13,402 nt of DNA, taken from contig LJCR01000023.1 of NCBI GenBank assembly GCA_001399705.1, forward strand, positions 1 through 13,402, given 5' to 3'. Below the pieces are notes generated by a model, which saw only the letters and a program-made list of their open reading frames with translations, ran no database searches and was not told the DNA's origin. Of the stretch, positions 2,211 to 13,402 are shown one piece after another. Both the position numbers and the translations under genes were made by a program. This DNA is from Kouleothrix aurantiaca. GTDB taxonomy: Bacteria; Chloroflexota; Chloroflexia; Chloroflexales; Roseiflexaceae. How positions within the stretch are numbered: position 1 is the first letter of the stretch; each line of letters begins with the position of its first letter.

Positions 2211-2591
2211 TCAGGCGACGTCCTGGGGAGGATGCGGCGGCGCACTCGATGGTTCGCCCGCCGGAGAGGCGACCTGATCCAGCGCATCGAGGCGCGCGCG
2301 GAGCACTTCCTCGATAATCGCGCGCACGGTCACCCGCTTTCCACGGCGTGCCTGCTGATCGAGGGCAAAGCCCTTGACTCGCAGCAGCAGATCCGAGTCC
2401 AGGCGTATGACCCGGAGATCCTTAGCCGTCAACGGCTCGCGCGGAATTTCCAGGTCGGGGCGCTCCAAAAACGCGCGCAGCGCATCCTCGATAATGCCGG
2501 CCGGCGCTCCTCGGGCCTGGGCGCGCTGGACTAATGCGCGATCGATGGCGACTGTTCTCGTGTGCCTGGCAGAGGCAGGTTGCGTTTGCAT
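2211..2591 (-). CDS. Two-module ribbon-helix-helix-like DNA-binding protein, paralog A
   Basis: 126 residues from ATG at 2591; a longer upstream frame exists but its extension is low-complexity. Residues about 12-45 (RTVAIDRALVQRAQARGAP, then IIEDALRAFLE) fit an RHH beta-strand plus two helices. A second RHH-like module follows at about 60-103 (RLDSDLLLRVKGFALD, then RAIIEEVLRARLDAL). The last 20 residues are a Pro/Ser-rich tail. RHH proteins usually work as dimers that repress their own operon, often as antitoxins or plasmid regulators; two modules in one chain could act as a built-in pseudodimer. No toxin-like partner is visible. A TATACT -10-like box lies at 2628-2633. The next gene upstream on the same strand, at 2733-3092, is a diverged paralog. 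Fold assignment is by pattern only. Confidence 0.8.
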   Translation of the reverse strand: MQTQPASARHTRTVAIDRALVQRAQARGAPAGIIEDALRAFLERPDLEIPREPLTAKDLRVIRLDSDLLLRVKGFALDQQARRGKRVTVRAIIEEVLRARLDALDQVASPAGEPSSAPPHPPQDVA

Positions 2592-2627
2592 GGTCACCAG
2601 CGGTACTGTGTGCGGTGAAGCTGCTCT

Positions 2628-2633
2628 AGTATA
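2628..2633 (-). promoter_or_regulatory. Candidate -10 box for RHH gene A
   Basis: TATACT on the minus strand, 36 nt upstream of the ATG at 2591. No clear -35 hexamer is visible. The same hexamer occurs at 3118-3123 ahead of the paralogous gene, which supports shared regulation. Confidence 0.4.
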
Positions 2634-2732
2634 CCAAAGAAGCCGGGGCGCGTGTGCGCCCCCGCATCTTGCCGACGCCGCCCGGCCAGCATGCATGCCT
2701 GGCTCCGAATTATGCCTGAGCGCAGCGCGGAT

Positions 2733-3092
2733 CTAACCGCGGGACTCCGCGTCACGCGCGTCCAGGTAGGCGCGGACGATCTCTTCGATAACCGCTCGCT
2801 GTGAAACACGCCTCCCCCGCTCCACCTCTCGATCGAGCGCGAACCACTTTACGGCCATGATGAGTTGCCGATCGACCGAAGTAGTGCCGACGGTTTCTCT
2901 GAGCACCGTACTTCGCGGCACCGCCGTGTCGGGGGCCGCAAAAAAAGCGCGGAGGGCCTGCTCTACCACCTCGGTCTGGCTTCCGTACGGCGCACAGCGC
3001 CTTAGAAGCGCCTGGTCAAGCGCGACGTTGATTCGACGCGTTGGGGCACTCGTCCCAGCACCTGGTTTCTGTTGAGCGAGATCGTCGTTCAT
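2733..3092 (-). CDS. Two-module ribbon-helix-helix-like DNA-binding protein, paralog B
   Basis: 119 residues from ATG at 3092. It shares the layout of the protein at 2211-2591: a variable N-terminus, a first RHH-like module (RINVALDQALLRRCAPYGSQ, then VVEQALRAFFA), a linker with a conserved acidic/Pro segment, and a second module (SVDRQLIMAVKWFALDREVE, then RAVIEEIVRAYLDAR). The two proteins clearly arose by tandem duplication and have diverged strongly. A likely role is DNA binding and autorepression. The upstream region 3118-3316 holds a promoter candidate and repeated TGCGAAAAAT motifs that would suit an RHH operator. The ATG lacks a strong Shine-Dalgarno sequence. Partner genes or a toxin are not seen. 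Confidence 0.8.
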   Translation of the reverse strand: MNDDLAQQKPGAGTSAPTRRINVALDQALLRRCAPYGSQTEVVEQALRAFFAAPDTAVPRSTVLRETVGTTSVDRQLIMAVKWFALDREVERGRRVSQRAVIEEIVRAYLDARDAESRG

Positions 3093-3117
3093 AGCGGATC
3101 GCTTTGTCTGCCACAGC

Positions 3118-3148
3118 AGTATACTACCGCTTGCGCTTCCGATGTAAA
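3118..3148 (-). promoter_or_regulatory. Candidate promoter of RHH gene B
   Basis: On the minus strand TTTACA (3148-3143) and TAGTAT (3126-3121) are 16 nt apart, about 30 nt before the ATG at 3092. An overlapping TATACT lies at 3123-3118. The assignment is by consensus match only. Confidence 0.45.
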
Positions 3149-3168
3149 GATAGAAGGGCGTTTTATAT

Positions 3169-3316
3169 CGCTTGGTGCGAACGGAGGAATCGGGGAGATC
3201 GCGCATCCAAACTGCCTTCTCGCGTTCCCCTCATCGCCACGGCGCAGGCGCTTTGATGCGAAAAATATACCGCTCGGTGCGAAAAATTGCAGAATTATAT
3301 GTTTCATGCGAAAAAT
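3169..3316. repeat. Direct repeats of TGCGAAAAAT upstream of the RHH genes
   Basis: TGCGAAAAAT occurs exactly at 3257-3266, 3278-3287 and 3307-3316. A partial copy (TGCGAA) sits at 3176-3181. Most copies are preceded by a CGCTT-like block, so the unit is about 16-18 bp. They lie directly upstream of the RHH gene starting at 3092. Repeated sites of this size are typical operators for RHH repressors, or iterons. The stretch holds no gene. Confidence 0.65.
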
Positions 3317-3903: not shown

Positions 3904-4023
3904 CTGCGCGTTTAACACCGTACTGCGGTGTCGATAGCTGTCGATGGTCGGGCGTCAAGGAGTTGCACCTTGGACTGCGGTTTATAAGACGGCCGTGTTC
4001 CTGTTACACTAACGCCCGAGGTA

Positions 4024-7325: not shown

Positions 7326-7402
7326 TGGTCCCGCGGGCGGGGGTCGAACCCGCTGCCTTGCGATTAAGAGTCGCCTGCTGCATCCAGATGAGCTTCCACG
7401 GG
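7326..7402 (-). tRNA. tRNA-Lys(CTT)
   Basis: Acceptor CCCGTGG/CCGCGGG, A73, CCA encoded. Anticodon stem GCGA/TCGC, loop CTCTTAA. T-loop TTCGACC with D-loop GG, so a canonical elbow. It is separated by 4 nt from tRNA-Lys(TTT), which has the altered elbow. Confidence 0.95.
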
Positions 7403-7406
7403 ATAG

Positions 7407-7483
7407 TGGTGCCGCCAGCACGGATTTGCACCTGCGTCCTCCGGCTTAAAAGGCCGTTGCTCTCCTGCCTGAGCTTTGGCGGC
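7407..7483 (-). tRNA. tRNA-Lys(TTT), altered elbow
   Basis: Acceptor GCCGCCA/TGGCGGC, A73, CCA encoded. Anticodon stem CGGC/GCCG, loop CTTTTAA. The T-loop is TGCAAAT (G55 for T) and the D-loop AGGCAGGA has AG where GG is normal. The T-stem 3' strand has one bulged G. Confidence 0.93.
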
Positions 7484-7490
7484 GTGGTTT

Positions 7491-7578
7491 TGGTACCTCC
7501 GGCGAGATTCGCACTCGCACGAGCCTCGCGGCCCACCGGTGTTTGAGACCGGCATGTCTGCTGTTCCATCACGGAGGC
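7491..7578 (-). tRNA. tRNA-Leu(CAA), altered elbow
   Basis: Type II tRNA with a long variable arm. Acceptor GCCTCCG/CGGAGGT has a G1-T72 wobble; A73, CCA. Anticodon stem CCGGT/ACCGG, loop CTCAAAC. T-stem GCGAG/CTCGC with loop TGCGAAT (G55). D-loop GAACAGCAGA has AG in the GG position. Confidence 0.95.
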
Positions 7579-7581
7579 ATG

Positions 7582-7656
7582 TGGTGCGGCCGAACCAAGT
7601 TGCACGCGCAGGGGCTCTCACCCATGGCGCCCTCAACTGCCGGCTGCCCGACCAGC
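7582..7656 (-). pseudogene. Decayed tRNA with a variant T-loop
   Basis: The 3' end CGGCCGCACCA looks like acceptor plus CCA, and TGCAACT resembles the variant T-loops. T-stem, acceptor and anticodon arms do not pair, though. The anticodon area GGGCGCCATGGGTGAGAGCC gives no seven-base loop. Confidence 0.4.
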
Positions 7657-7683
7657 AAAAGATCGCCATAGCGGCGATCTTTT
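7657..7683. terminator. Bidirectional intrinsic terminator inside the array
   Basis: Perfect 11-bp stem (7657-7667 with 7673-7683), loop ATAGC. The arms begin with AAAA and end with TTTT, so both strands show a GC stem followed by a T-run. It would separate the transcription unit holding tRNA-Arg(TCG) from the Leu-Lys-Lys group downstream. Confidence 0.8.
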
Positions 7684-7711
7684 GGGTTCCCGCTAGGGAT
7701 AAGTATTGAGC

Positions 7712-7787
7712 TGGCGCGGCCGGCAGGAGTCCAACCTGCACTCTTCGGTTCCGAAGACCGCTGCTTTGTGCATTAAGCTACGGCCGC
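7712..7787 (-). tRNA. tRNA-Arg(TCG), swapped elbow pair
   Basis: Acceptor GCGGCCG/CGGCCGC, G73 (usual for Arg here), CCA. Anticodon stem core CGGT/ACCG, loop CTTCG GA, anticodon TCG. The T-loop is TTGGACT (G56 for C) and the D-loop AATGCACA reads GC where GG is normal, so the G19-C56 pair appears reversed to C19-G56. Confidence 0.93.
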
Positions 7788-7849
7788 GCGGTGCGCGACA
7801 TGGCTTCCGCCGCTCCCAATGGATGCCAGCACGCAAGCCTGCCGCGTAA

Positions 7850-7923
7850 TGGTAGCCCTGGACGGTACCGACCCGTCGCTCCCCGCTTGAAAGGCGGGCC
7901 TTCTGCCATTAAAGTACAGGGCC
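7850..7923 (-). tRNA. tRNA-Glu(TTC), G54/G58 T-loop
   Basis: Acceptor GGCCCTG/CAGGGCT with a G1-T72 wobble, A73, CCA. Anticodon stem CCCGC/GCGGG, loop CTTTCAA. T-stem GACGG/CCGTC with loop GTCGGTA: T55 and C56 kept, but G at both 54 and 58. D-loop keeps GG. Confidence 0.94.
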
Positions 7924-7927
7924 ATAC

Positions 7928-8001
7928 TGGTGGAGCTGTCGGGAATCGCGCCCGATCTTCCGCGTTGCGAACGCGGCGTCATCCTAGTAGACCACAGCCC
8001 C
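7928..8001 (-). tRNA. tRNA-Ala(CGC), altered elbow
   Basis: Acceptor GGGGCTG/CAGCTCC contains the G3-T70 wobble that alanyl-tRNA synthetase reads; A73, CCA. Anticodon stem CCGCG/CGCGG, loop TTCGCAA. T-stem TCGGG/CCCGA with loop CGCGATT (C54, G55). D-loop TACTAGGAT has AG at the GG position. Keeping the identity pair argues for function. Confidence 0.94.
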
Positions 8002-8005
8002 AGAT

Positions 8006-8081
8006 TGGAGCCTCAAGCGAGAGTCGAACTCGCGACCTGGCGTTTACGAAACGCCTGCTCGGCCATCTGAGCTTTTGAGGC
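8006..8081 (-). tRNA. tRNA-Thr(CGT)
   Basis: Acceptor GCCTCAA/TTGAGGC, T73, CCA. Anticodon stem GGCGT/ACGCC, loop TTCGTAA. Canonical T-loop TTCGACT and D-loop GG. T73 is shared with tRNA-Thr(GGT), whereas A73 is usual in bacterial Thr tRNAs. Confidence 0.95.
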
Positions 8082-8084
8082 ATG

Positions 8085-8158
8085 TGGTAGCGCTGGCAGG
8101 TGTCGAACCTGCGCCGGCGGCTTATGAGACCGCTGCACTTCCGTTATGCTACAGCGCC
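8085..8158 (-). tRNA. tRNA-Met(CAT), elongator or Ile(CAT)
   Basis: Acceptor GGCGCTG/CAGCGCT with a G1-T72 wobble, A73, CCA. Anticodon stem GCGGT/GCCGC, loop CTCATAA. T-loop canonical TTCGACA, D-loop GG. It lacks initiator features, so it is elongator Met or a lysidine-modified Ile tRNA; sequence alone does not decide. Confidence 0.92.
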
Positions 8159-8597
8159 ATAGAGACATGGCCGGCGCGGCCGGGCGGCATTACCGCCCGC
8201 ATAAAGCGAGGTTACGCGCGCGCTGCGCCAGACGCCCGGGTTTTTCGCCCCGCACGCCCTCGCCGGGCCTGGCCCGGCTCGGTCGCCTCCCGATTCGACT
8301 CCGCGTCATCCTGTCCATCACAGCGCCGGGGCCGACCACCCGGCACGCGGCGGTCGGTCGTCCCAGCCGGGGAACTATCCCTGCACGCCGTTCAGCGAGG
8401 CGCTTTCCGTCGACGACATCCCGGCGATGCACCGGCGCTCGCCGCCTTCCCGCGCACGCGATCCGCATAGGCGCCGGGGGCTGGCAGGTTCGCATCGTGC
8501 CCCCACTCGTTCCCAGACTCACCGCGGCAGTTTCCCCGGTCAGGCGGCGACGCCGCCTGAGAGGCCCCTACGGGAGGGGAGAAACCAGCCATGTCAG
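8159..8597. other. GC-rich stretch without a recognised gene
   Basis: 439 bp between tRNA-Met and tRNA-Glu(CTC). A minus-strand frame of 110 codons (8190-8522) is Arg/Pro-rich, has no good start signal and no recognisable motif, so I do not call it. A T-arm-like GGCAGGTTCGCATCGTGCC near 8480 has no accompanying tRNA. Confidence 0.5.
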
Positions 8598-8671
8598 TGG
8601 TAGCTCCGACCGGTTACGATCCGGTGTTTTCCGGTTGAGAGCCGGATGGTCTGCCATTAACCTACGGAGCC
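8598..8671 (-). tRNA. tRNA-Glu(CTC), A54/T58 T-loop
   Basis: Acceptor GGCTCCG/CGGAGCT with a G1-T72 wobble, A73, CCA. Anticodon stem TCCGG/CCGGA, loop CTCTCAA. T-stem ACCGG/CCGGT with loop ATCGTAA: A54 and T58 replace T54 and A58. D-loop GG and T55-C56 are kept. It lies just downstream of the HNH gene and its hairpin. Confidence 0.94.
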
Positions 8672-8686
8672 ATATCAGTGTCCACG

Positions 8687-8717
8687 GAGGATGCGGGTCT
8701 GCTCGGCCCGCATCCTC
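8687..8717 (-). terminator. Hairpin directly after the HNH stop
   Basis: Perfect 11-bp stem GAGGATGCGGG (8687-8697) with 8707-8717, loop of 9 nt, starting 1 nt after the HNH stop codon. No T-run follows, so it may be an I-shaped terminator or an mRNA 3' end that separates the coding part from tRNA-Glu 15 nt further on. Confidence 0.6.
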
Positions 8718-8718
8718 G

Positions 8719-9237
8719 TCAGATGTTATATGCGTACTTCCGCCAGACCTCATGCCTGTCCAGCTCGCCGATGAGCGCGAAAGCGATCATCTGCGGCTGG
8801 CGCGGCTTCGCCCGGAGGGTCATGTGTGCTTCCTCGGGTGTTCGGTCGCGCTTTGCGTGGTTGCAATCACTGCACGCAGCAACCACGTTGTCCCAGGTGG
8901 TCTGCCCACCTCGGGCCTTCGGCACCACGTGGTCGAGCGTCAGCTTCGCCCGACCTGGCTGAGCACCGCAATACTGGCAGGTCTCGCGGTCGCGGATGAG
9001 CACACCTCGGCGCGAGCACGGCAGGCGCCGCGAGCGCGGGATCGCCACGTAGCGCACCAGGCGGATCACCAGTGGGCACTCCATACTCGTGCCCTGCGCC
9101 CGCAGGCGCTGCTCGGCAGCCTCGACCAGCTCGGCCTTGGACTGGAGCAGCAGGATGACCGCGCGCTTGATGCTCACGACGCGCAGCGGCTCGTACGACG
9201 CATTCAGAACGAGAACTGACGAAACTGACGAACTCAA
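8719..9237 (-). CDS. HNH endonuclease family protein
   Basis: 172 residues from a TTG start at 9237. I prefer this start because GAGAGGGGGTG lies about 8 nt upstream; an in-frame TTG at 9258 is possible and no ATG is available. After the N-terminal VLVLNASYEPLRVVS segment, typical of a widespread stand-alone HNH family, come CQYC and CSDC zinc cysteine pairs and the HNH core: LDHVVPKARGG, WDNVVAAC, CNHAKRD. All catalytic positions (DH, N, H) are present, so the enzyme looks intact. It would cut or nick DNA. It sits among tRNA genes on the same strand, with tRNA-Pro upstream and tRNA-Glu downstream. It may be a homing-type resident of the array or a chromosomal-type housekeeping HNH gene carried along. 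Confidence 0.93.
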   Translation of the reverse strand: MSSSVSSVLVLNASYEPLRVVSIKRAVILLLQSKAELVEAAEQRLRAQGTSMECPLVIRLVRYVAIPRSRRLPCSRRGVLIRDRETCQYCGAQPGRAKLTLDHVVPKARGGQTTWDNVVAACSDCNHAKRDRTPEEAHMTLRAKPRQPQMIAFALIGELDRHEVWRKYAYNI

Positions 9238-9389
9238 GAGACGAACACCCCCTCTCAAGACGATACGACGACGTTGGTCTTGTGCCTCCTGTCTCTTCGC
9301 TCGGCTTCTGGAACCCGATCCGGCTGGCCGAGGCCATCTTCTGGACCGGCATCAGTCGCGGCCCCCTTTGCAGAAACAGTGGAAGGCAA

Positions 9390-9466
9390 TGGTCAGAGTG
9401 GTCGGAGTTGAACCGACGGCCTCCGGCTCCCCGCGCCGGCGCGCTACCAGGCTGCGCTACACCCTG
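9390..9466 (-). tRNA. tRNA-Pro(GGG) with C33
   Basis: Acceptor CAGGGTG/CACTCTG, A73, CCA. D-arm TAGCGCAGCCTGGTAGCGC is typical of Pro. Anticodon stem CCGGC/GCCGG, loop GCGGGGA: the anticodon GGG is preceded by C where T33 is nearly universal. T-loop canonical TTCAACT. Confidence 0.93.
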
Positions 9467-9508
9467 TTTGTTTGCGACATTTCGCGACATTGGCTGTCGC
9501 GAAAAAGC

Positions 9509-9601
9509 TGGCGGGACGAGCAGGCGCTGCCCCTGCAAGACCTCTTTCGCGGCTCGACCGCTTTCCAAGCGGCTGCCGTCACTCACTCGGCTTGCCGTCC
9601 C
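9509..9601 (-). tRNA. tRNA-Ser(GGA), altered elbow
   Basis: Type II tRNA. Acceptor GGGACGG/TCGTCCC, G73, CCA. Anticodon stem GCCGC/GCGGT, loop TTGGAAA. T-stem GCAGG/CCTGC with loop GGCAGCG (G54, G55, G58). Aligned with the neighbouring tRNA-Ser(GCT), the D-loop changes GGGTGAC to GAGTGAC, putting A at position 18. Confidence 0.92.
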
Positions 9602-9629
9602 GTGCTATCGTGCCAATCCCGCCAGCCTT

Positions 9630-9714
9630 TGGCGGAGTAATGTTCAGGGGCGCCGAGCCGGCAGACTACGGGGCCGCTCCCACGGCTTGCCGCCGAACGG
9701 GGAGACCCGACTCC
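9630..9714 (-). pseudogene. Decayed tRNA-Ser-like gene
   Basis: It starts GGAGTCG and ends TTACTCCGCCA, matching the acceptor and GCCA end of the neighbouring Ser tRNAs, with partial acceptor pairing. The anticodon region GCCGTGGGAGCGGC gives only a six-base loop and no T-arm forms. It is probably a dead copy within the Ser block. Confidence 0.5.
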
Positions 9715-9728
9715 GACGCCTCCTTTAC

Positions 9729-9817
9729 TGGCGGAACGTAGACGAATCGAACGTCCGTGACCGGAGGCCACGCCCGGGGGTTCGAGCCCCGTTGCCGACC
9801 ATTCAGCAGTACGCTCC
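9729..9817 (-). tRNA. tRNA-Ser(CGA)
   Basis: Acceptor GGAGCGT/ACGTTCC, G73, CCA. Anticodon stem CGGGG/CCCCG, loop CTCGAAC. Long variable arm. Canonical T-loop TTCGATT; D-loop keeps GG. Confidence 0.95.
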
Positions 9818-9821
9818 ATAT

Positions 9822-9907
9822 TGGCGGAGAGTGGAAGGATCGAACTCCACGGCCTATGCCGTCCCCAGTGTTCAAAGCTGGTTGCCGTCCCCTCGGCGGC
9901 ACTCTCC
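9822..9907 (-). tRNA. tRNA-Ser(TGA)
   Basis: Acceptor GGAGAGT/ACTCTCC, G73, CCA. Anticodon stem CCAGC/ACTGG (last pair mismatched), loop TTTGAAC. Long variable arm, T-loop TTCGATC, D-loop with GG. Spacers of 4 and 3 nt separate it from the flanking Ser tRNAs. Confidence 0.94.
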
Positions 9908-9910
9908 ATT

Positions 9911-9998
9911 TGGCGGAGCGGGCGCGAGTTGAACGCGCAAGGCTGTTACGCTCGACACGTTAGCACCGTGCTGCCGTCACCCTTCGGCTTGCCGCTCC
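9911..9998 (-). tRNA. tRNA-Ser(GCT)
   Basis: Acceptor GGAGCGG/CCGCTCC, G73, CCA. Anticodon stem CACG/CGTG, loop GTGCTAA. T-stem GCGCG/CGCGC with canonical loop TTCAACT; D-loop GG. It completes the four-anticodon Ser block. Confidence 0.95.
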
Positions 9999-10187
9999 AT
10001 AGCGATTGATCGCGCAGCCCCAGCGCGTGGCCGTTCGCCGCCGCGCGTCCCGGGTTATCCGGCCGGGCCCACTCTGGTGGGCTGAGCAGGATCGGCCCGC
10101 GGCCTTTCGGCCTGTGATGCGGACCTGACGGCCACCTGCCCCTCCCCACCCGACGTCGTTTGTACGCCGCCGGAGCTGCGCGATCAC

Positions 10188-10261
10188 TGGAGTCCCCGGC
10201 GGGTACTGACCCCGCTATAGTGGTTTTGCAGACCACTGCCTTACCGTCTGGCTCCAGGGAC
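10188..10261 (-). tRNA. tRNA-Cys(GCA), G54/G58 T-loop
   Basis: Acceptor GTCCCTG/CGGGGAC, T73 (the Cys identity base), CCA. Anticodon stem GTGGT/ACCAC, loop CTGCAAA. T-stem GCGGG/CCCGC with loop GTCAGTA: G54 and G58, with T55-C56 kept. D-loop keeps GG. Confidence 0.95.
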
Positions 10262-10264
10262 ATA

Positions 10265-10341
10265 TGGGGTGCCGAGCCGGATTTGAACCGGCCTTCTCTG
10301 CGTTCACAGCGCAGAATGTTAACCACTACACCATCGGCACC
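10265..10341 (-). tRNA. tRNA-His(GTG)
   Basis: The extra G at position -1 opposite C73 is encoded, the hallmark of tRNA-His. Acceptor GTGCCGA/TCGGCAC. Anticodon stem CTGCG/CGCAG, loop CTGTGAA. T-loop canonical TTCAAAT; D-loop GG. CCA encoded. Confidence 0.97.
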
Positions 10342-10353
10342 ATAATGTAAGAT

Positions 10354-10429
10354 TGGCACCGTCGGAGGGCCTCGAACCCCCACCTTCGTGTTTAGAAGAC
10401 ACGCGCGCTTCCAATTACGCTACGACGGC
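10354..10429 (-). tRNA. tRNA-Arg(TCT)
   Basis: Acceptor GCCGTCG/CGACGGT with a G1-T72 wobble, G73, CCA. Anticodon stem CGTGT/ACACG, loop CTTCTAA. T-stem GGGGG/CCCTC, loop TTCGAGG; D-loop GG. Confidence 0.95.
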
Positions 10430-10432
10430 ATA

Positions 10433-10520
10433 GGTCCCCCGACCGCGACTCGAACGCGGAAGCGGCTCACACCGCACCAATTTTTAAGATTGGCTCGTTT
10501 ACCAGTTCCGGCACCGGGGG
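10433..10520 (-). tRNA. tRNA-Leu(TAA)
   Basis: Acceptor CCCCCGG/TCGGGGG, A73 followed by CCT, so a complete CCA is not encoded here, unlike its neighbours. Anticodon stem CCAAT/ATTGG, loop CTTAAAA. Long variable arm. T-stem CCGCG/CGCGG with canonical TTCGAGT; D-loop GG. Repeat cluster E begins 8 nt upstream of the 5' end. Confidence 0.94.
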
Positions 10521-10527
10521 TAGAGTT

Positions 10528-10569
10528 TGCAGATTTGCCGCGACAATATGCAGATTTGTCGCGATGAGA
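10528..10569. repeat. Repeat cluster E: two 21-bp direct repeats
   Basis: TGCAGATTTG(C/T)CGCGA is repeated at 10528-10548 and 10549-10569 with a period of 21 bp. It abuts the 5' side of tRNA-Leu(TAA), so it overlaps where its promoter would be. Confidence 0.7.
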
Positions 10570-10915
10570 ATACAGCACCCCAAAGCCTTAGCTGATGTCT
10601 TGATCCTCCTTAGTTGCGAAGATTCGATCCCCATGCGGCCGCCCGCTGCGCCGCACGACCATACTTGCACACGTAAGGCTGCTCCTCGATCGCAGCAGCA
10701 AGGGCTAAATCGGCTGGTGATTGGCGTCCTGCGTTTTGCCGATCTACTTACCCCCGGACATCTCGCGTCCTGTGTCCCCGCGCGGCTGGCCTGAGCCGCG
10801 ACCTCGGGTAGGGAGCCCCTCCATCGGCCAGACCCCTTTCTCACCGAGTCGTACGCACCCCGGCGGGCAGGCGGAAGGGTACTATCGCCCACATACCGGC
10901 CAATCCGACCAGCAC
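10570..10915. other. Gene-free spacer, possibly decayed tRNA sequence
   Basis: 346 bp with no supported gene. A T-arm-like GGGGATCGAATCTTC (minus strand, near 10625) and an arm-like CTTACGTGTGCAAG near 10670 hint at degraded tRNAs, but no cloverleaf can be drawn. Confidence 0.4.
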
Positions 10916-10991
10916 TGGCACCAGGGGAAGGGATCGAACCTTCGTAGTCGGTTTCAAAGGCCGACGTCCTACCAAATTAGACGACCCTGGT
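10916..10991 (-). tRNA. tRNA-Gln(TTG)
   Basis: Acceptor ACCAGGG/CCCTGGT with A1-T72, G73, CCA. Anticodon stem TCGGC/ACCGA, loop CTTTGAA. T-stem GAAGG/CCTTC, canonical TTCGATC; D-loop GG. Three nt from tRNA-Arg(CCT). Confidence 0.95.
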
Positions 10992-10994
10992 ATA

Positions 10995-11071
10995 TGGCGC
11001 CGCTGACCCGAGTTGCACGGATACGGACACTGCTTAGGACACAGTCGCGCTATCTGTTACGCTACAGCGGC
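10995..11071 (-). tRNA. tRNA-Arg(CCT), altered elbow
   Basis: Acceptor GCCGCTG/CAGCGGC, G73, CCA. Anticodon stem ACTGT/GCAGT, loop GTCCTAA. T-stem ATCCG/CGGGT with loop TGCAACT (G55). D-loop TAACAGATA carries AG in place of GG. Confidence 0.95.
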
Positions 11072-11389
11072 ATACTTCTCAACCGCGGCCGGTGTTTGGT
11101 CGTGCGCCGTCGCGCAGCGGACCACCGCCGGCCAATGGAACATTGTGACTGTGGCCAGATCCCCCACCTGGCTCCTGAACCGCCCAGCACGTACCGGCAT
11201 GCGCGGGGTGAGACACCTCCCGGCGATCGGCCGGCCGCATGGCTGCGTCCACCGTCTTTCAGCCTCCAGCCGAGCCCACCGGCGCCTCTTCCCGCCACGT
11301 CACGACAACGTCTCCGGCGATCGCTGACCCACAGGGCTTATTCGGCTTTATTGGCGCTCCCGCGCGCTGTCACACGCGCTCACGGTCAC
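11072..11389. other. Gene-free spacer
   Basis: 318 bp of GC-rich sequence without a supported tRNA, protein gene or clear repeat. Short open frames on both strands lack start signals. A CTGTCAC loop between GCGCG-type arms near 11370 resembles an anticodon arm but has no matching D- or T-arm. Confidence 0.4.
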
Positions 11390-11466
11390 TGGTCGGGGAG
11401 ACGCGATTTGCACGCGCGGCCTCCTGGGTGGAAATCAGGCGCTCTCTCTGGCTGAGCTACTCCCCG
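11390..11466 (-). tRNA. tRNA-Gly(TCC), second copy, altered elbow
   Basis: Acceptor CGGGGAG/CTCCCCG, A73, CCA. Anticodon stem CCTGA/CCAGG (last pair mismatched), loop TTTCCAC. T-stem GCGCG/CGCGT with loop TGCAAAT (G55). D-loop AGCCAGAGA carries AG for GG. Same anticodon as 5906-5979, which has the canonical elbow. Confidence 0.92.
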
Positions 11467-11472
11467 AGATAG

Positions 11473-11550
11473 TGGTCAGGGCCCTCGGATCTGCCCCGAG
11501 CACCTCCACGATGTCAACGTGGCGCTCTAATCTCAATGAGCTAGGCCCTG
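11473..11550 (-). tRNA. tRNA-Val(GAC), altered elbow
   Basis: Acceptor CAGGGCC/GGCCCTG, A73, CCA. Anticodon stem CCACG/CGTGG, loop TTGACAT. T-stem CTCGG/CCGAG with loop GGCAGAT (G54, G55, G58). D-loop ATTGAGATTA supplies AG where GG is normal. The other Val tRNA, at 4508, is canonical. Confidence 0.93.
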
Positions 11551-11553
11551 GTC

Positions 11554-11629
11554 TGGTCAGGGTTCGGGGCTTCGCTCCCCGCGCCTCCGGCTTGGGATGC
11601 CGGCACTCTACTGAATGAGCTAAACCCTG
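11554..11629 (-). tRNA. tRNA-Gly(CCC), altered elbow
   Basis: Acceptor CAGGGTT/AACCCTG, A73, CCA. Anticodon stem CCGGC/GCCGG, loop ATCCCAA. T-stem CGGGG/CCCCG with loop AGCGAAG (A54, G55, A58). D-loop ATTCAGTA carries AG for GG. Confidence 0.94.
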
Positions 11630-11818
11630 TTGCGGCCCGCCACCCGGCGAGATTGGGTACTCGCGGCGTGTTTGTCGTGGTGCCAGCCACCAAGGACGCT
11701 GGCCGCCGCCCCCGCGCGCCGCGCTGGCACGCGACGCTTGCGGGCGACAACCGCTTCCCACGAACCCCGGCCTTGCCGGGGCCTCCCTCGAACCGGGACA
11801 CCGGAGAATCGGGCACTC

Positions 11819-11892
11819 TGGTCAGGCAAGAGGGTGACGCTCCCTCGTCTTCGACTTGGCAAGCCGACGCTCTGCTGTTGAGCTACTGCCTG
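11819..11892 (-). tRNA. tRNA-Gly(GCC), altered elbow
   Basis: Acceptor CAGGCAG/TTGCCTG, A73, CCA. Anticodon stem TCGGC/GTCGA, loop TTGCCAA. T-stem GAGGG/CCCTC with loop AGCGTCA, which combines A54/T58 with G55. D-loop AACAGCA carries AG. A perfect TATAAT lies 5 nt before the 5' end. Confidence 0.95.
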
Positions 11893-11897
11893 GTGAA

Positions 11898-11903
11898 ATT
11901 ATA
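11898..11903 (-). promoter_or_regulatory. TATAAT -10 box of tRNA-Gly(GCC)
   Basis: Perfect consensus TATAAT on the minus strand, ending 5 nt before the tRNA. Transcription would start at or next to tRNA nucleotide 1, giving almost no 5' leader. The best -35 match (TTTACA) is 23 nt away, so the -35 is non-standard or an activator is used. Repeat cluster D lies 140-210 bp upstream. Confidence 0.65.
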
Positions 11904-12042
11904 GGGTTTACCGCGTCCCAAAGCCTTGTAAAATAATTCGGAAATTGACCGCCGGCATCCTGCTGCCGCCTCACACGACCAGATCGGCTGCATGATCTAC
12001 CCCATCTGCGACGCTACCGCATCTCGATGCGATGCTGGAGCA

Positions 12043-12108
12043 GATACCTGCACTCATTTCCTCCGATACCCACACTAATTTCCACCGATACCTGCACTGA
12101 TTTTTCTG
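12043..12108. repeat. Repeat cluster D: three 22-bp direct repeats
   Basis: Units start at 12043, 12065 and 12087, exactly 22 bp apart, with core GATACCtgCACTnATTTcC. The minus-strand core GTGCAGGT is shared with cluster B. It lies upstream of the promoter of tRNA-Gly(GCC) and just downstream of the Glu-like tRNA. Confidence 0.8.
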
Positions 12109-12115
12109 TGCTTCA

Positions 12116-12185
12116 TGGTGGTCTGCCGGGGTGACGATCCCCGCTTCCTCGCGTGAGAGGCGAGAGTCCTTAGCCAACATAGACG
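12116..12185 (-). tRNA. Degenerate tRNA-Glu(CTC)-like gene
   Basis: Anticodon stem CTCGC/GCGAG with loop CTCTCAC and T-stem CGGGG/CCCCG with loop ATCGTCA (A54/T58) are perfect; A73 and CCA follow. The acceptor only partly pairs (GTCT with AGAC) and the D-arm is short (GTTGGCTAAGGAC). Possibly inactive; a second Glu(CTC) lies at 8598. Confidence 0.6.
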
Positions 12186-12196
12186 AGCAGACCAGG

Positions 12197-12272
12197 TGGT
12201 GCCGTCGTCAGGTAACGATCCTGAACCCCTCGCGTTTCAGGCGAGTGCGCAGACCTTCTACGCCACAACGGC
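12197..12272 (-). tRNA. tRNA-Phe(GAA), A54/T58 T-loop
   Basis: Acceptor GCCGTTG/CGACGGC, A73, CCA. Anticodon stem CTCGC/GCGAG, loop CTGAAAC. T-stem TCAGG/CCTGA with loop ATCGTTA: A54 and T58 with T55-C56 kept. D-loop keeps GG. Confidence 0.95.
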
Positions 12273-12275
12273 AGA

Positions 12276-12352
12276 TGGAGCCACAGGAGCGAGTTGCACG
12301 CTCGACCTCGTCTGTACCAGAGACGCGCTCTGACTGGCTGAGCTACTGCGGC
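12276..12352 (-). tRNA. tRNA-Thr(GGT), altered elbow
   Basis: Acceptor GCCGCAG/CTGTGGC, T73, CCA. Anticodon stem CGTCT/AGACG, loop CTGGTAC. T-stem GAGCG/CGCTC with loop TGCAACT (G55). D-loop AGCCAGTCA reads AG where AGCTGGTCA would be typical. The 5' end overlaps the last codons of the small gene at 12343-12546 by 10 nt. Confidence 0.95.
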
Positions 12353-12546
12353 GAGTTGTGCTGCGCGGCCAGGTCGCGCAGCTCGCGATAGATCTCCTTC
12401 CGGCCCGCCTGGCGGGCGCTGGTCTTGCGCGGCTGCTGGGCGCGGCGGCGAGCGCGGGCGCGGGTGCAGCCGTAGCGATCCGGCGGATACTTGTCGTGGC
12501 CGGGGCAGCAGCCCCGATCGCGCCGGCGGACGCCGTAGGGCTTCAT
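12343..12546 (-). CDS. Small basic Cys/His protein of unknown function
   Basis: 67 residues. A strong Shine-Dalgarno AGGAGAA lies 6 nt before the ATG at 12546; a GTG one codon earlier is an alternative. The N-terminus MKPYGVRRRDRGCCPGHDKY contains CCPGHDKYP, a possible metal-binding or structural knot. It is followed by a very basic RARARRRAQ stretch and a C-terminal helix (KEIYRELRDLAAQ). The charge suggests nucleic-acid binding. It resembles small basic proteins I associate with phage genomes, but that is memory only. The last 10 nt overlap the 5' end of tRNA-Thr(GGT), so cleavage at the tRNA would remove the stop codon from the mRNA. Confidence 0.75.
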   Translation of the reverse strand: MKPYGVRRRDRGCCPGHDKYPPDRYGCTRARARRRAQQPRKTSARQAGRKEIYRELRDLAAQHNSPQ

Positions 12547-12562
12547 CACGTTCTCCTGTTAA

Positions 12563-12649
12563 TGGTGCTGGTGATGAGAGTTGAACTCATACGGTCTCTC
12601 GACCACAGGTGTCTAAAACCTGCGCGCCTTCCTGTTACGCCACACCAGC
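12563..12649 (-). tRNA. tRNA-Leu(TAG)
   Basis: Acceptor GCTGGTG/CACCAGC, A73, CCA. Anticodon stem CAGGT/ACCTG, loop TTTAGAC. Long variable arm. T-loop canonical TTCAACT; D-loop AACAGGAAG keeps GG. It lies just upstream of the small gene at 12546. Confidence 0.95.
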
Positions 12650-12656
12650 AAAGAAA

Positions 12657-12750
12657 TGGTCTCGGTAGCGGGGGTCGAACCCGCAAGAGCGGTTGTTGCC
12701 GCTCACTACGCCCTCAACGTAGCGCGTCTGCCAGATTTCGCCATACCGAG
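12657..12750 (-). tRNA. tRNA-Leu(GAG)
   Basis: Acceptor CTCGGTA/TACCGAG, A73, CCA. Anticodon stem CTACG/CGTAG, loop TTGAGGG. Long variable arm GAGCGGCAACAACCGCTC. T-stem GCGGG/CCCGC, canonical TTCGACC; D-loop GG. Confidence 0.96.
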
Positions 12751-12755
12751 GCATA

Positions 12756-12844
12756 TGGTGCCGAAGGCGGGAGTCGAACCCACAAGAGAGTTGCCCCTCA
12801 CAGCGTTCTGAGCGCTGCGCGTCTGCCTATTTCGCCACTTCGGC
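12756..12844 (-). tRNA. tRNA-Leu(CAG)
   Basis: Acceptor GCCGAAG/CTTCGGC, A73, CCA. Anticodon stem CAGCG/CGCTG, loop CTCAGAA. Long variable arm. Canonical T-loop TTCGACT; D-loop GG. With the CAA, TAA, TAG and GAG genes this gives a complete set of five Leu anticodons. Confidence 0.96.
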
Positions 12845-13087
12845 ATGGCCCAGCATTGCGCGGTATCCTGTCGTTGGACGATCCGGGCGCCGAAGCACCC
12901 GGCCAGGAATTAAACCTATTTCTCCGCGCTCTGCTGGCAACCACAACTTTTTGCTGCCCTCCGCCTGGCGTGGTCGCATCGTCACCCCCGAGCCGGTGGA
13001 AAACCCGGCCCGGCGGCGCTGCTGCCAAACAGCGCCGGTTTCCAGGCTGATGACGACGTGGCACCGGCCACGCCCTGCGTCAGGCGA

Positions 13088-13163
13088 TGGTAGCGGGAGT
13101 GGGACTTGCACCACACGACCTCCGAGTTATGAGCCCGGCGAGCTGCTGCTGCTCTATCCCGCG
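13088..13163 (-). tRNA. Initiator tRNA-fMet(CAT), altered elbow
   Basis: Starts CGCGGGA, pairing with TCCCGCT so that C1 faces T72, the unpaired 1-72 that marks bacterial initiators. The anticodon stem CCGGG/CTCGG carries the G-rich run above loop CTCATAA. The D-loop AGCAGCA is short and has AG for GG. The T-loop TGCAAGT has G55, and the T-stem needs one bulge. A73, CCA. Confidence 0.92.
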
Positions 13164-13373
13164 TCGATGAGATTGTGGCCCTGCTTCCGCCGCCGCCCGC
13201 CAGCGGGCGACCACCGCCAACCCCGGCAGGCATCGGCGCTGATCACGCAGGAGGGGCGCTCCTACGCTCCCAGCACATTTGCCGGCCGGCCGTGCCGCGA
13301 GTCAGACGGCCCGGTTTCCAACAGTCGGCGTGCGACTCGTCGCCTTGGCCGGCGACGGCTTCCACAGGGCTCA

Positions 13374-13402
13374 TGGTGGCGGAGCCCGGGATTGCACCGG
13401 CG
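13374..13402 (-). tRNA. 3' end of a tRNA cut by the window edge, altered T-loop
   Basis: CCA (13374-13376), A73, acceptor strand CTCCGCC, then T-stem CCGG/CCGG around loop TGCAATC with G55. Anticodon and D-arm lie outside the window. The expected 5' acceptor strand is GGCGGAG. Confidence 0.8.

Follow-up and report, generated by a model that had tools for sequence, protein, structure and literature searches.

Covarying A18-G55 elbow pairs in a tRNA gene array of Kouleothrix aurantiaca and in other viral and bacterial tRNAs

Introduction

The tRNA array units of mycobacteria, which are also present in phages and plasmids, are dense, redundant with the tRNAs of the host, and encode tRNAs for 19 to 20 amino acids, with 26 to 27 tRNAs in M. 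avium (PMC5966550, PMC12803027), and the trn operon of Anabaena carries 26 tRNAs on a megaplasmid, where a ribbon-helix-helix (RHH) protein represses it and translational stress induces it (PMC10272220). Here we describe a tRNA gene array from Kouleothrix aurantiaca (Chloroflexota), located on a contig of 13,402 nucleotides (LJCR01000023.1, assembly GCA_001399705.1), the whole of which we call the window, and in which the tertiary pair between positions 18 and 55 of the tRNA elbow is changed in a subset of the tRNAs. Like the mycobacterial units, this array is dense (31 complete tRNAs in 6.1 kb) and host-redundant, and it has the HNH endonuclease gene that is commonly found inside tRNA array units (PMC5966550, PMC12803027). 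It also resembles the extra, RHH-repressed tRNA set of Anabaena, in that an RHH-like gene, recognized by a weak Pfam match, lies upstream.

In the canonical elbow, residue 18 sits between residues 57 and 58 and contacts pseudouridine 55 (psi55), and 19-56 forms an exposed Watson-Crick lid (PMC4810234); the sections of two reviews used here treat G18-psi55 as conserved (PMC4810234, PMC7912444). The array tRNAs share the positions at which the D loop docks onto the T loop in this elbow (PMC4810234, PMC7912444), but A18-G55 replaces G18-psi55, G19-C56 is sometimes C-G, A-U or U-A, and U54-A58 is sometimes G-G or A-U. No paper describing an A18-G55 pair was found in the Creative Commons-licensed PubMed Central literature, the search not extending to subscription journals; several papers there that contain both A18 and G55 concern other subjects, judging by their titles. 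The Steinberg group is said to have obtained suppressor tRNAs with altered contacts between the D and T loops in laboratory selections, perhaps with A18-G55 among them. The staphylococcal cell-wall tRNA-Gly, named as the closest precedent when this sequence was first annotated, reportedly also has altered D and T loops. Such wall tRNAs are described as natural tRNAs with changed elements and a specialised role outside ordinary translation (PMC9976931, PMC4810233); they carry glycine only and serve cell-wall synthesis, whereas the array described here covers 20 amino acids and so does not belong to the wall type.

Results and Discussion

Positions 18 and 55 change together in the array

Using the tRNAs of the window and of L001, a second array stretch present on contig C1247 of the same genome, we observe that 15 of 43 de-duplicated and filtered tRNAs contain A18-G55 and that the remaining 28 contain G18-T55, with no A18 lacking G55 and no G55 lacking A18 (Fisher p = 6.6e-12). 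These 15 depart from G18-G19/T55-C56, the elbow of the RF00005 family consensus, which is a consensus and not a strict criterion. The tRNAs were read with our own parser, which leaves positions 18, 19, 54 and 55 unscored, and, depending on the analysis, those scoring below 46 with more than one stem mismatch, below 44 with more than one mismatch, or below 42 were removed before counting. Identical duplicates were removed from the own-array table and from the counts for other contigs, relatives and viruses, and the tabulation of the own array and its relatives excluded L334-L343, because these either overlap with L391-L396 or duplicate the window, and loci L344-L373.

The first-pass annotation had listed eleven tRNAs with G55 and with AG where GG is expected in the D loop. 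G55 is present in all eleven, as read by eye in Ser(GGA) and the initiator-like tRNA-Met and by alignment or parser in the other nine, and direct reading places AG at 18-19 in 11 of 11, whereas the Rfam alignment gives GG in Ala(CGC) and Lys(TTT). The statement that all eleven fold well is only partly borne out: the T stem of Lys(TTT) and of the initiator-like tRNA-Met is bulged by one base, and these two and Ser(GGA) fall below the parser threshold and therefore enter none of the statistics. Two further observations, that the alanine identity element survives in Ala(CGC) and that tRNAs with T55-C56 keep GG, were confirmed, the latter in 29 of 29 such tRNAs among 46. In addition to this list, we identified A18-G55 in Ile(TAT), G55 in a tRNA truncated at the right end of the contig, a swapped 19-56 pair in Arg(TCG), and swaps at 54-58 (Table 1).

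Table 1. Positions in the window of the tRNA array, its HNH gene and the individual tRNAs with a changed elbow
Feature	Position	Strand	Description
tRNA gene array	7326..13402	-	31 complete tRNAs and one cut at the right end; ARAGORN, Rfam RF00005, own parser and by-eye reading
tRNA-Ile(TAT)	3948..4018	-	A18-G55, placement arguable (AGG); D loop AACAGGA, T loop TGCAACT; outside the interval first annotated
tRNA-Lys(TTT)	7410..7483	-	A18-G55; T stem bulged by one base; GG at 18-19 in the Rfam alignment
tRNA-Leu(CAA)	7494..7578	-	A18-G55
tRNA-Arg(TCG)	7715..7787	-	G18-T55 retained; 19-56 is C19-G56
tRNA-Ala(CGC)	7931..8001	-	A18-G55, C54; G3-T70 retained; GG at 18-19 in the Rfam alignment
HNH endonuclease gene within the array	8719..9258	-	Pfam HNH_5 1.6e-15; PHROG 16726 1.2e-36
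tRNA-Ser(GGA)	9512..9601	-	T loop GGCAGCG (G54, G55, G58); AG in the D loop; by-eye reading
tRNA-Arg(CCT)	10998..11071	-	A18-G55
tRNA-Gly(TCC)	11393..11466	-	A18-G55
tRNA-Val(GAC)	11476..11550	-	A18-G55 and G54-G58
tRNA-Gly(CCC)	11557..11629	-	A18-G55 and A54-A58
tRNA-Gly(GCC)	11822..11892	-	A18-G55 and A54-T58
tRNA-Thr(GGT)	12279..12352	-	A18-G55
Initiator-like tRNA-Met (C1 opposite T72)	13091..13163	-	A18-G55; T stem bulged by one base; by-eye reading
3' portion of one more tRNA, truncated at the contig end	13374..13402	-	T loop TGCAATC (G55); D loop beyond the contig end

In longer D loops, positions 18-19 were placed by a fixed preference for GG, then AG, then others, a rule that is blind to the T loop. 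The placement is arguable where the D loop contains AGG, as in Ala(CGC), Lys(TTT) and also Ile(TAT), and Ala(GGC) of L001 was entered as A18 on an arguable placement under the same rule. Removal of three arguable placements leaves the association at p = 1.8e-10, and the 7-nucleotide D loops of the own array, where there is no placement freedom, give 6, 0, 0 and 10 tRNAs with A18-G55, A18 without G55, G55 without A18, and G18-T55, respectively (p = 1.2e-4). A placement-free test of 46 tRNAs shows that the D loop lacks GG in 12 of 15 tRNAs with G55 versus 2 of 31 with T55 (p = 9e-7); both of the latter are arginine tRNAs with a changed position 56, namely Arg(TCG) and Arg(CCG) of L001.

These counts bear on the proposal that the changed tRNAs are decaying pseudogenes or an artefact of alignment, which we consider barely credible. 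A few members are indeed bulged, and among the 11 G55 tRNAs that the Rfam covariance-model alignments show for the window and L001, consensus position 18 is A in 8, two (Ala(CGC) and Lys(TTT)) obtain GG by omission of position 20, and a third is misplaced, with Ala(GGC) of L001 aligned poorly. Against this stand the matched changes, the scarcity of intermediates and the preserved stems, and the 7-nucleotide loops agree. Stem mismatches average 0.20 per 17 pairs in the 15 G55 tRNAs versus 0.13 in the 31 T55 tRNAs, and Gly(TCC), a G55 member, scores 55.8 bits with RF00005 versus a gathering cut-off of 29.

The same association is present in a larger pool of 1064 tRNAs, which excludes those matching the search pattern P1 (A18-G19 with G55-C56). 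In this pool we find 778 tRNAs with G18-T55, 260 with A18-G55, 7 with G18-G55, 2 with A18-T55, 2 with C18-G55 and 15 with other combinations, and G18-C55 occurs in 12 of the 1064; the pooled stretches were mostly picked for holding one A18-G55 tRNA, so that the share of 260 in 1064 does not reflect a natural frequency and it is the association that counts. The rarity of single-change intermediates indicates that the 18-55 pair is constrained, and their near absence argues that A18 and G55 are probably in contact, with the dock preserved. In the stretches from related genomes, where G55 occurring freely with G18 would have spoken for independent change, we find G18 in 3 and A18 in 56 of the G55 tRNAs.

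The 19-56 lid and other elbow pairs

Positions 19 and 56 also covary, with C19-G56 and A19-U56 present in the arrays. Among the pooled tRNAs, 33 of the 56 that lack G19-C56 contain another Watson-Crick pair, compared with a mean of 0.67 and a maximum of 5 in 2000 shuffles. In L001, Arg(GCG) combines A18-G55 with C19-G56, and Arg(CCG) has T55, no GG and, by our own placement, A19-T56, which Rfam places differently. At 54-58, T-A is found in 923, G-G in 67 and A-T in 40 of the 1064 pooled tRNAs. Given the matched A18 and G55 and the covarying 19-56 pair, the array changes are a structure-preserving rewrite and not decay, and the counts from the own array and the pool uphold the earlier view that matched changes at 18 and 55 across unrelated isoacceptors reflect a rebuilt elbow.

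Arginine tRNAs show the lid change repeatedly: in the related arrays L395 and L393, those with anticodons TCG and TCT again contain C19-G56. In the Pelagibacteraceae isolate genome G101, tRNA-Thr(GGT) (L375:4988-5059) has T loop TTAGATT and D loop TAGTGTTA, which we read as a U19-A56 lid. Several tRNAs of the own array and its relatives also have odd combinations at 15-48 (T-G, C-A), which follow no clear rule and suggest that this tertiary pair varies too.

The main rival to a functional reading of these changes is near-neutral compensatory drift, in which A18-G55 is another geometrically acceptable pair that arises through paired mutations under relaxed selection on one copy, in redundant mobile arrays or streamlined genomes, and brings no gain from dispensing with pseudouridine. 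The array duplicates host isoacceptors, 18-55 is unchanged in 28 of 43 own-array tRNAs, and the alternative 19-56 and 54-58 pairs and odd 15-48 combinations occur alongside A18-G55, as expected if shape is the constraint. We nevertheless regard drift as unlikely, in that A18-G55 is reused (260 of 1064) whereas G18-C55 (12) and other combinations are rare, and in that the association with TruB absence, described below, is found in two distant groups.

Distribution of A18-G55 beyond the array

Our search with P1 identified 3 matches in the window versus none in 200 shuffles, and matches in 6 of 100 genomes searched, one of them the own genome and the other 5 drawn from 99 relatives. Across other sequences, P1 matched at least 120 viral-contig stretches and at least 117 genome-contig stretches, numbers from which no frequencies can be derived. 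Including P1 matches, A18-G55 is found on 45 anticodons of 19 amino acids, which argues for many origins.

The 31 tRNAs read in G101, out of 33 identified by Rfam, include a single tRNA-Phe(GAA) and a single tRNA-Val(GAC), and both contain A18-G55; no completeness figure accompanies this genome, and further copies could lie among the two unlisted tRNAs or in unassembled parts. These apparently single copies suggest that A18-G55 tRNAs may serve translation. An alternative is that the array tRNAs are non-translational, as the wall-specific tRNA-Gly is, with an altered elbow and weak EF-Tu binding diverting them from the ribosome. We consider this very improbable, because the array spans 20 of 20 amino acids and its tRNA genes mostly keep their stems intact and encode CCA, and because the only tRNA-Phe read in G101 carries the pair. 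What speaks for it is a contig of Streptomyces sp. I05A-00742 (L226:5458-5849) with four tandem tRNA-Gly(TCC)-like copies that contain A18-G55 and a poorly paired T stem. These copies are 113-115 bp apart, lie beside a canonical tRNA-Gly(GCC), and look like wall-type tRNA-Gly.

A18-G55 is associated with the absence of TruB

We scored TruB as PF01509 and compiled the cross-tables of TruB and P1 by eye. In the order of G101 (148 genomes, 30 with and 118 without TruB), P1 matches 73 of the 118 TruB-less genomes and 2 of the 30 in which TruB is present (p = 1.9e-8), a value that, like the p-values below, overstates the number of independent events because the genomes are related, most clearly in this order, where all 73 matches without TruB are tRNA-Phe; both matches with TruB are tRNA-His, as judged by the anticodon loops. 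In the patescibacterial phylum sample of G112 (192 genomes, 124 with TruB), P1 is present in 11 of 68 genomes without TruB versus 1 of 124 with it (p = 5e-5), and in 9 of 66 without TruB when two genomes with a previously known match are removed (p = 3.6e-4). Both G101 and G103 lack TruB. As a control enzyme we used PF00849, which is present in 182 of 192 genomes of the patescibacterial sample and in all 12 of those with a P1 match, so that incomplete assembly is an unlikely cause there. TruA (PF01416) was tried as the control and rejected as useless. This domain is found in 0 of 192 genomes of the phylum sample, versus 12 of 14 control genomes.

A pseudouridine-free elbow as the preferred reading

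The demonstrated covariation of 18 with 55, which recurs across unrelated isoacceptors and in both viral contigs and bacterial genomes, and the association with TruB absence in two groups frame the interpretation. It follows from chemistry that TruB cannot act at G55, as had been proposed, and, given that G55 cannot be pseudouridylated, the TruB association is most economically explained by a modification-independent elbow. We think it probable that the many array tRNAs that replace G18-U55 by A18-G55, and keep the G19-C56 lid or swap it for another Watson-Crick pair, have a pseudouridine-free, TruB-independent elbow usable in translation. In such an elbow A18 would still slot between T-loop bases 57 and 58 and contact G55, so that the L shape is kept, and the array tRNAs would be charged and used in translation. 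An elbow made independent of TruB in this way could spread where TruB has been lost. It would also be useful to a mobile set of tRNAs that has to work without reliance on host modification enzymes. More tentatively, A18-G55 may be a second natural solution to the elbow, i.e., a pseudouridine-free lock that evolved many times, was fixed in essential tRNAs of TruB-less lineages, and was adopted by some arrays for folding without host modification enzymes. For the array itself we can offer the conjecture of independence from host enzymes during transfer or expression bursts; the hosts tested contain TruB.

Several observations weigh against this reading, in addition to the relatedness of the genomes described above. 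TruB is present in all four array-bearing genomes tested (the own genome and three of its five array-bearing relatives), in both Endomicrobium genomes, and in 4 of 12 patescibacteria selected by the marker, and TruB loss is thus not required for A18-G55. The PF00849 control covers the patescibacterial sample and not the Pelagibacteraceae order, P1 catches only a subset of A18-G55 tRNAs, and only identical copies were removed from the 1064 pooled tRNAs, so that relatives remain among them. The pair is missing from 28 of 43 own-array tRNAs, and from all but 2 of 270 tRNAs on viral contigs not chosen by elbow, which were fetched with an HNH protein as bait (a generic HNH family in viral contigs). 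Finally, among relatives of the HNH protein, where 5 of 8 named plasmid or phage neighbourhoods hold tRNAs within 6 kb at the parser threshold, the usual T55-C56 is found in 27 of 27 tRNAs of the M. intracellulare plasmid array and in 26 of 28 of phage S-CBWM1, the remaining two having T56 and GA in the D loop. It is likewise found in 11 of 12 tRNAs of Tunturi_5, 4 of 4 of Mimi, and 18 of 19 of Nostoc pTCL26-01_A, the other being a weak G55 tRNA-Ile. A18-G55 is therefore no general feature of tRNA arrays. The Nostoc arrays, which are of the Anabaena type, differ from the window array in that most of their tRNAs read with the usual elbow, and resemble it in one point: two of them (L390:1842-1913, L407:9061) share a weakly folded tRNA-Ile(GAT)-like gene with A18-G55 and G54-G58.

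The same arrays bear on the suggestion, made in the first-pass annotation, that the changed elbow allows escape from a host factor that reads the normal one, such as a tRNA nuclease or another defence. Phage tRNAs have been proposed to evade nucleases through changes in the anticodon loop (PMC10264068), and tRNA arrays have been described as putative antidefence systems (PMC12803027). We find escape improbable, though no search for nucleases was made: the pair occurs in single tRNAs of Pelagibacteraceae genomes, including what is apparently the only tRNA-Phe of G101, and tracks the absence of TruB, where escape explains nothing, while 28 of 43 own-array tRNAs lack it and other arrays, such as that of the M. 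intracellulare plasmid, retain the normal elbow.

A natural and repeatedly evolved replacement of G18-psi55 offers a direct way to ask what psi55 is for, and lineages that differ in the presence of TruB and of A18-G55 are a ready comparison. The pair also matters for tRNA finding, in that A18-G55 tRNAs lose score in standard models and may pass for degraded genes, and intact ones can be recognized by a simple rule, namely A18 with G55 and a Watson-Crick 19-56 pair.

Genome context and neighbouring features

The window, which holds one portion of a large tRNA array, is the entire contig C1446 of a 7.8-Mb assembly (3843 contigs, 83.5% complete, 7.5% contaminated). A PUCC gene in a genome of the same family suggests a phototrophic relative within the Chloroflexota. 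The ends of the window and of L001 share no 15-base overlap, and the adjacency of the two contigs is unproven. Together they contain 46 array tRNAs at a parser score of at least 42, covering 20 of 20 amino acids with 41 anticodons, and CCA is encoded in 45 of the 46 genes. RF00005 has 23 matches above the gathering cut-off in the window, and tRNA-Ser(GGA) is not among them. Mean identity to the nearest host tRNA for the same amino acid is 62% for the G55 tRNAs (10 of 15 had one) and 65% for the T55 tRNAs (25 of 31 had one), and the 22 tRNAs read outside these two contigs in the genome all contain G18-G19/T55-C56.

None of the 8 window proteins scanned is a mobile-element hallmark, and L001 carries a CoiA-type gene. 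In related genomes, the arrays rich in A18-G55 include L394, located near a plasmid-type Replic_Relax gene, L392, located near an integrase core gene, and L396 and L391, with chromosomal-looking surroundings. Two adjoining small proteins are encoded at window positions 2211-2696 and 2733-3206 on the minus strand, the second of which is the one with weak RHH similarity. ARAGORN calls a tRNA-Val at positions 272-351, within an ArsP-like permease reading frame; its structure is poor, neither Rfam nor our parser supports it, and it is probably a false call. A small open reading frame inside the array (12343-12549, minus strand) matches PHROG 5428, a family of unknown function, at 5.9e-9.

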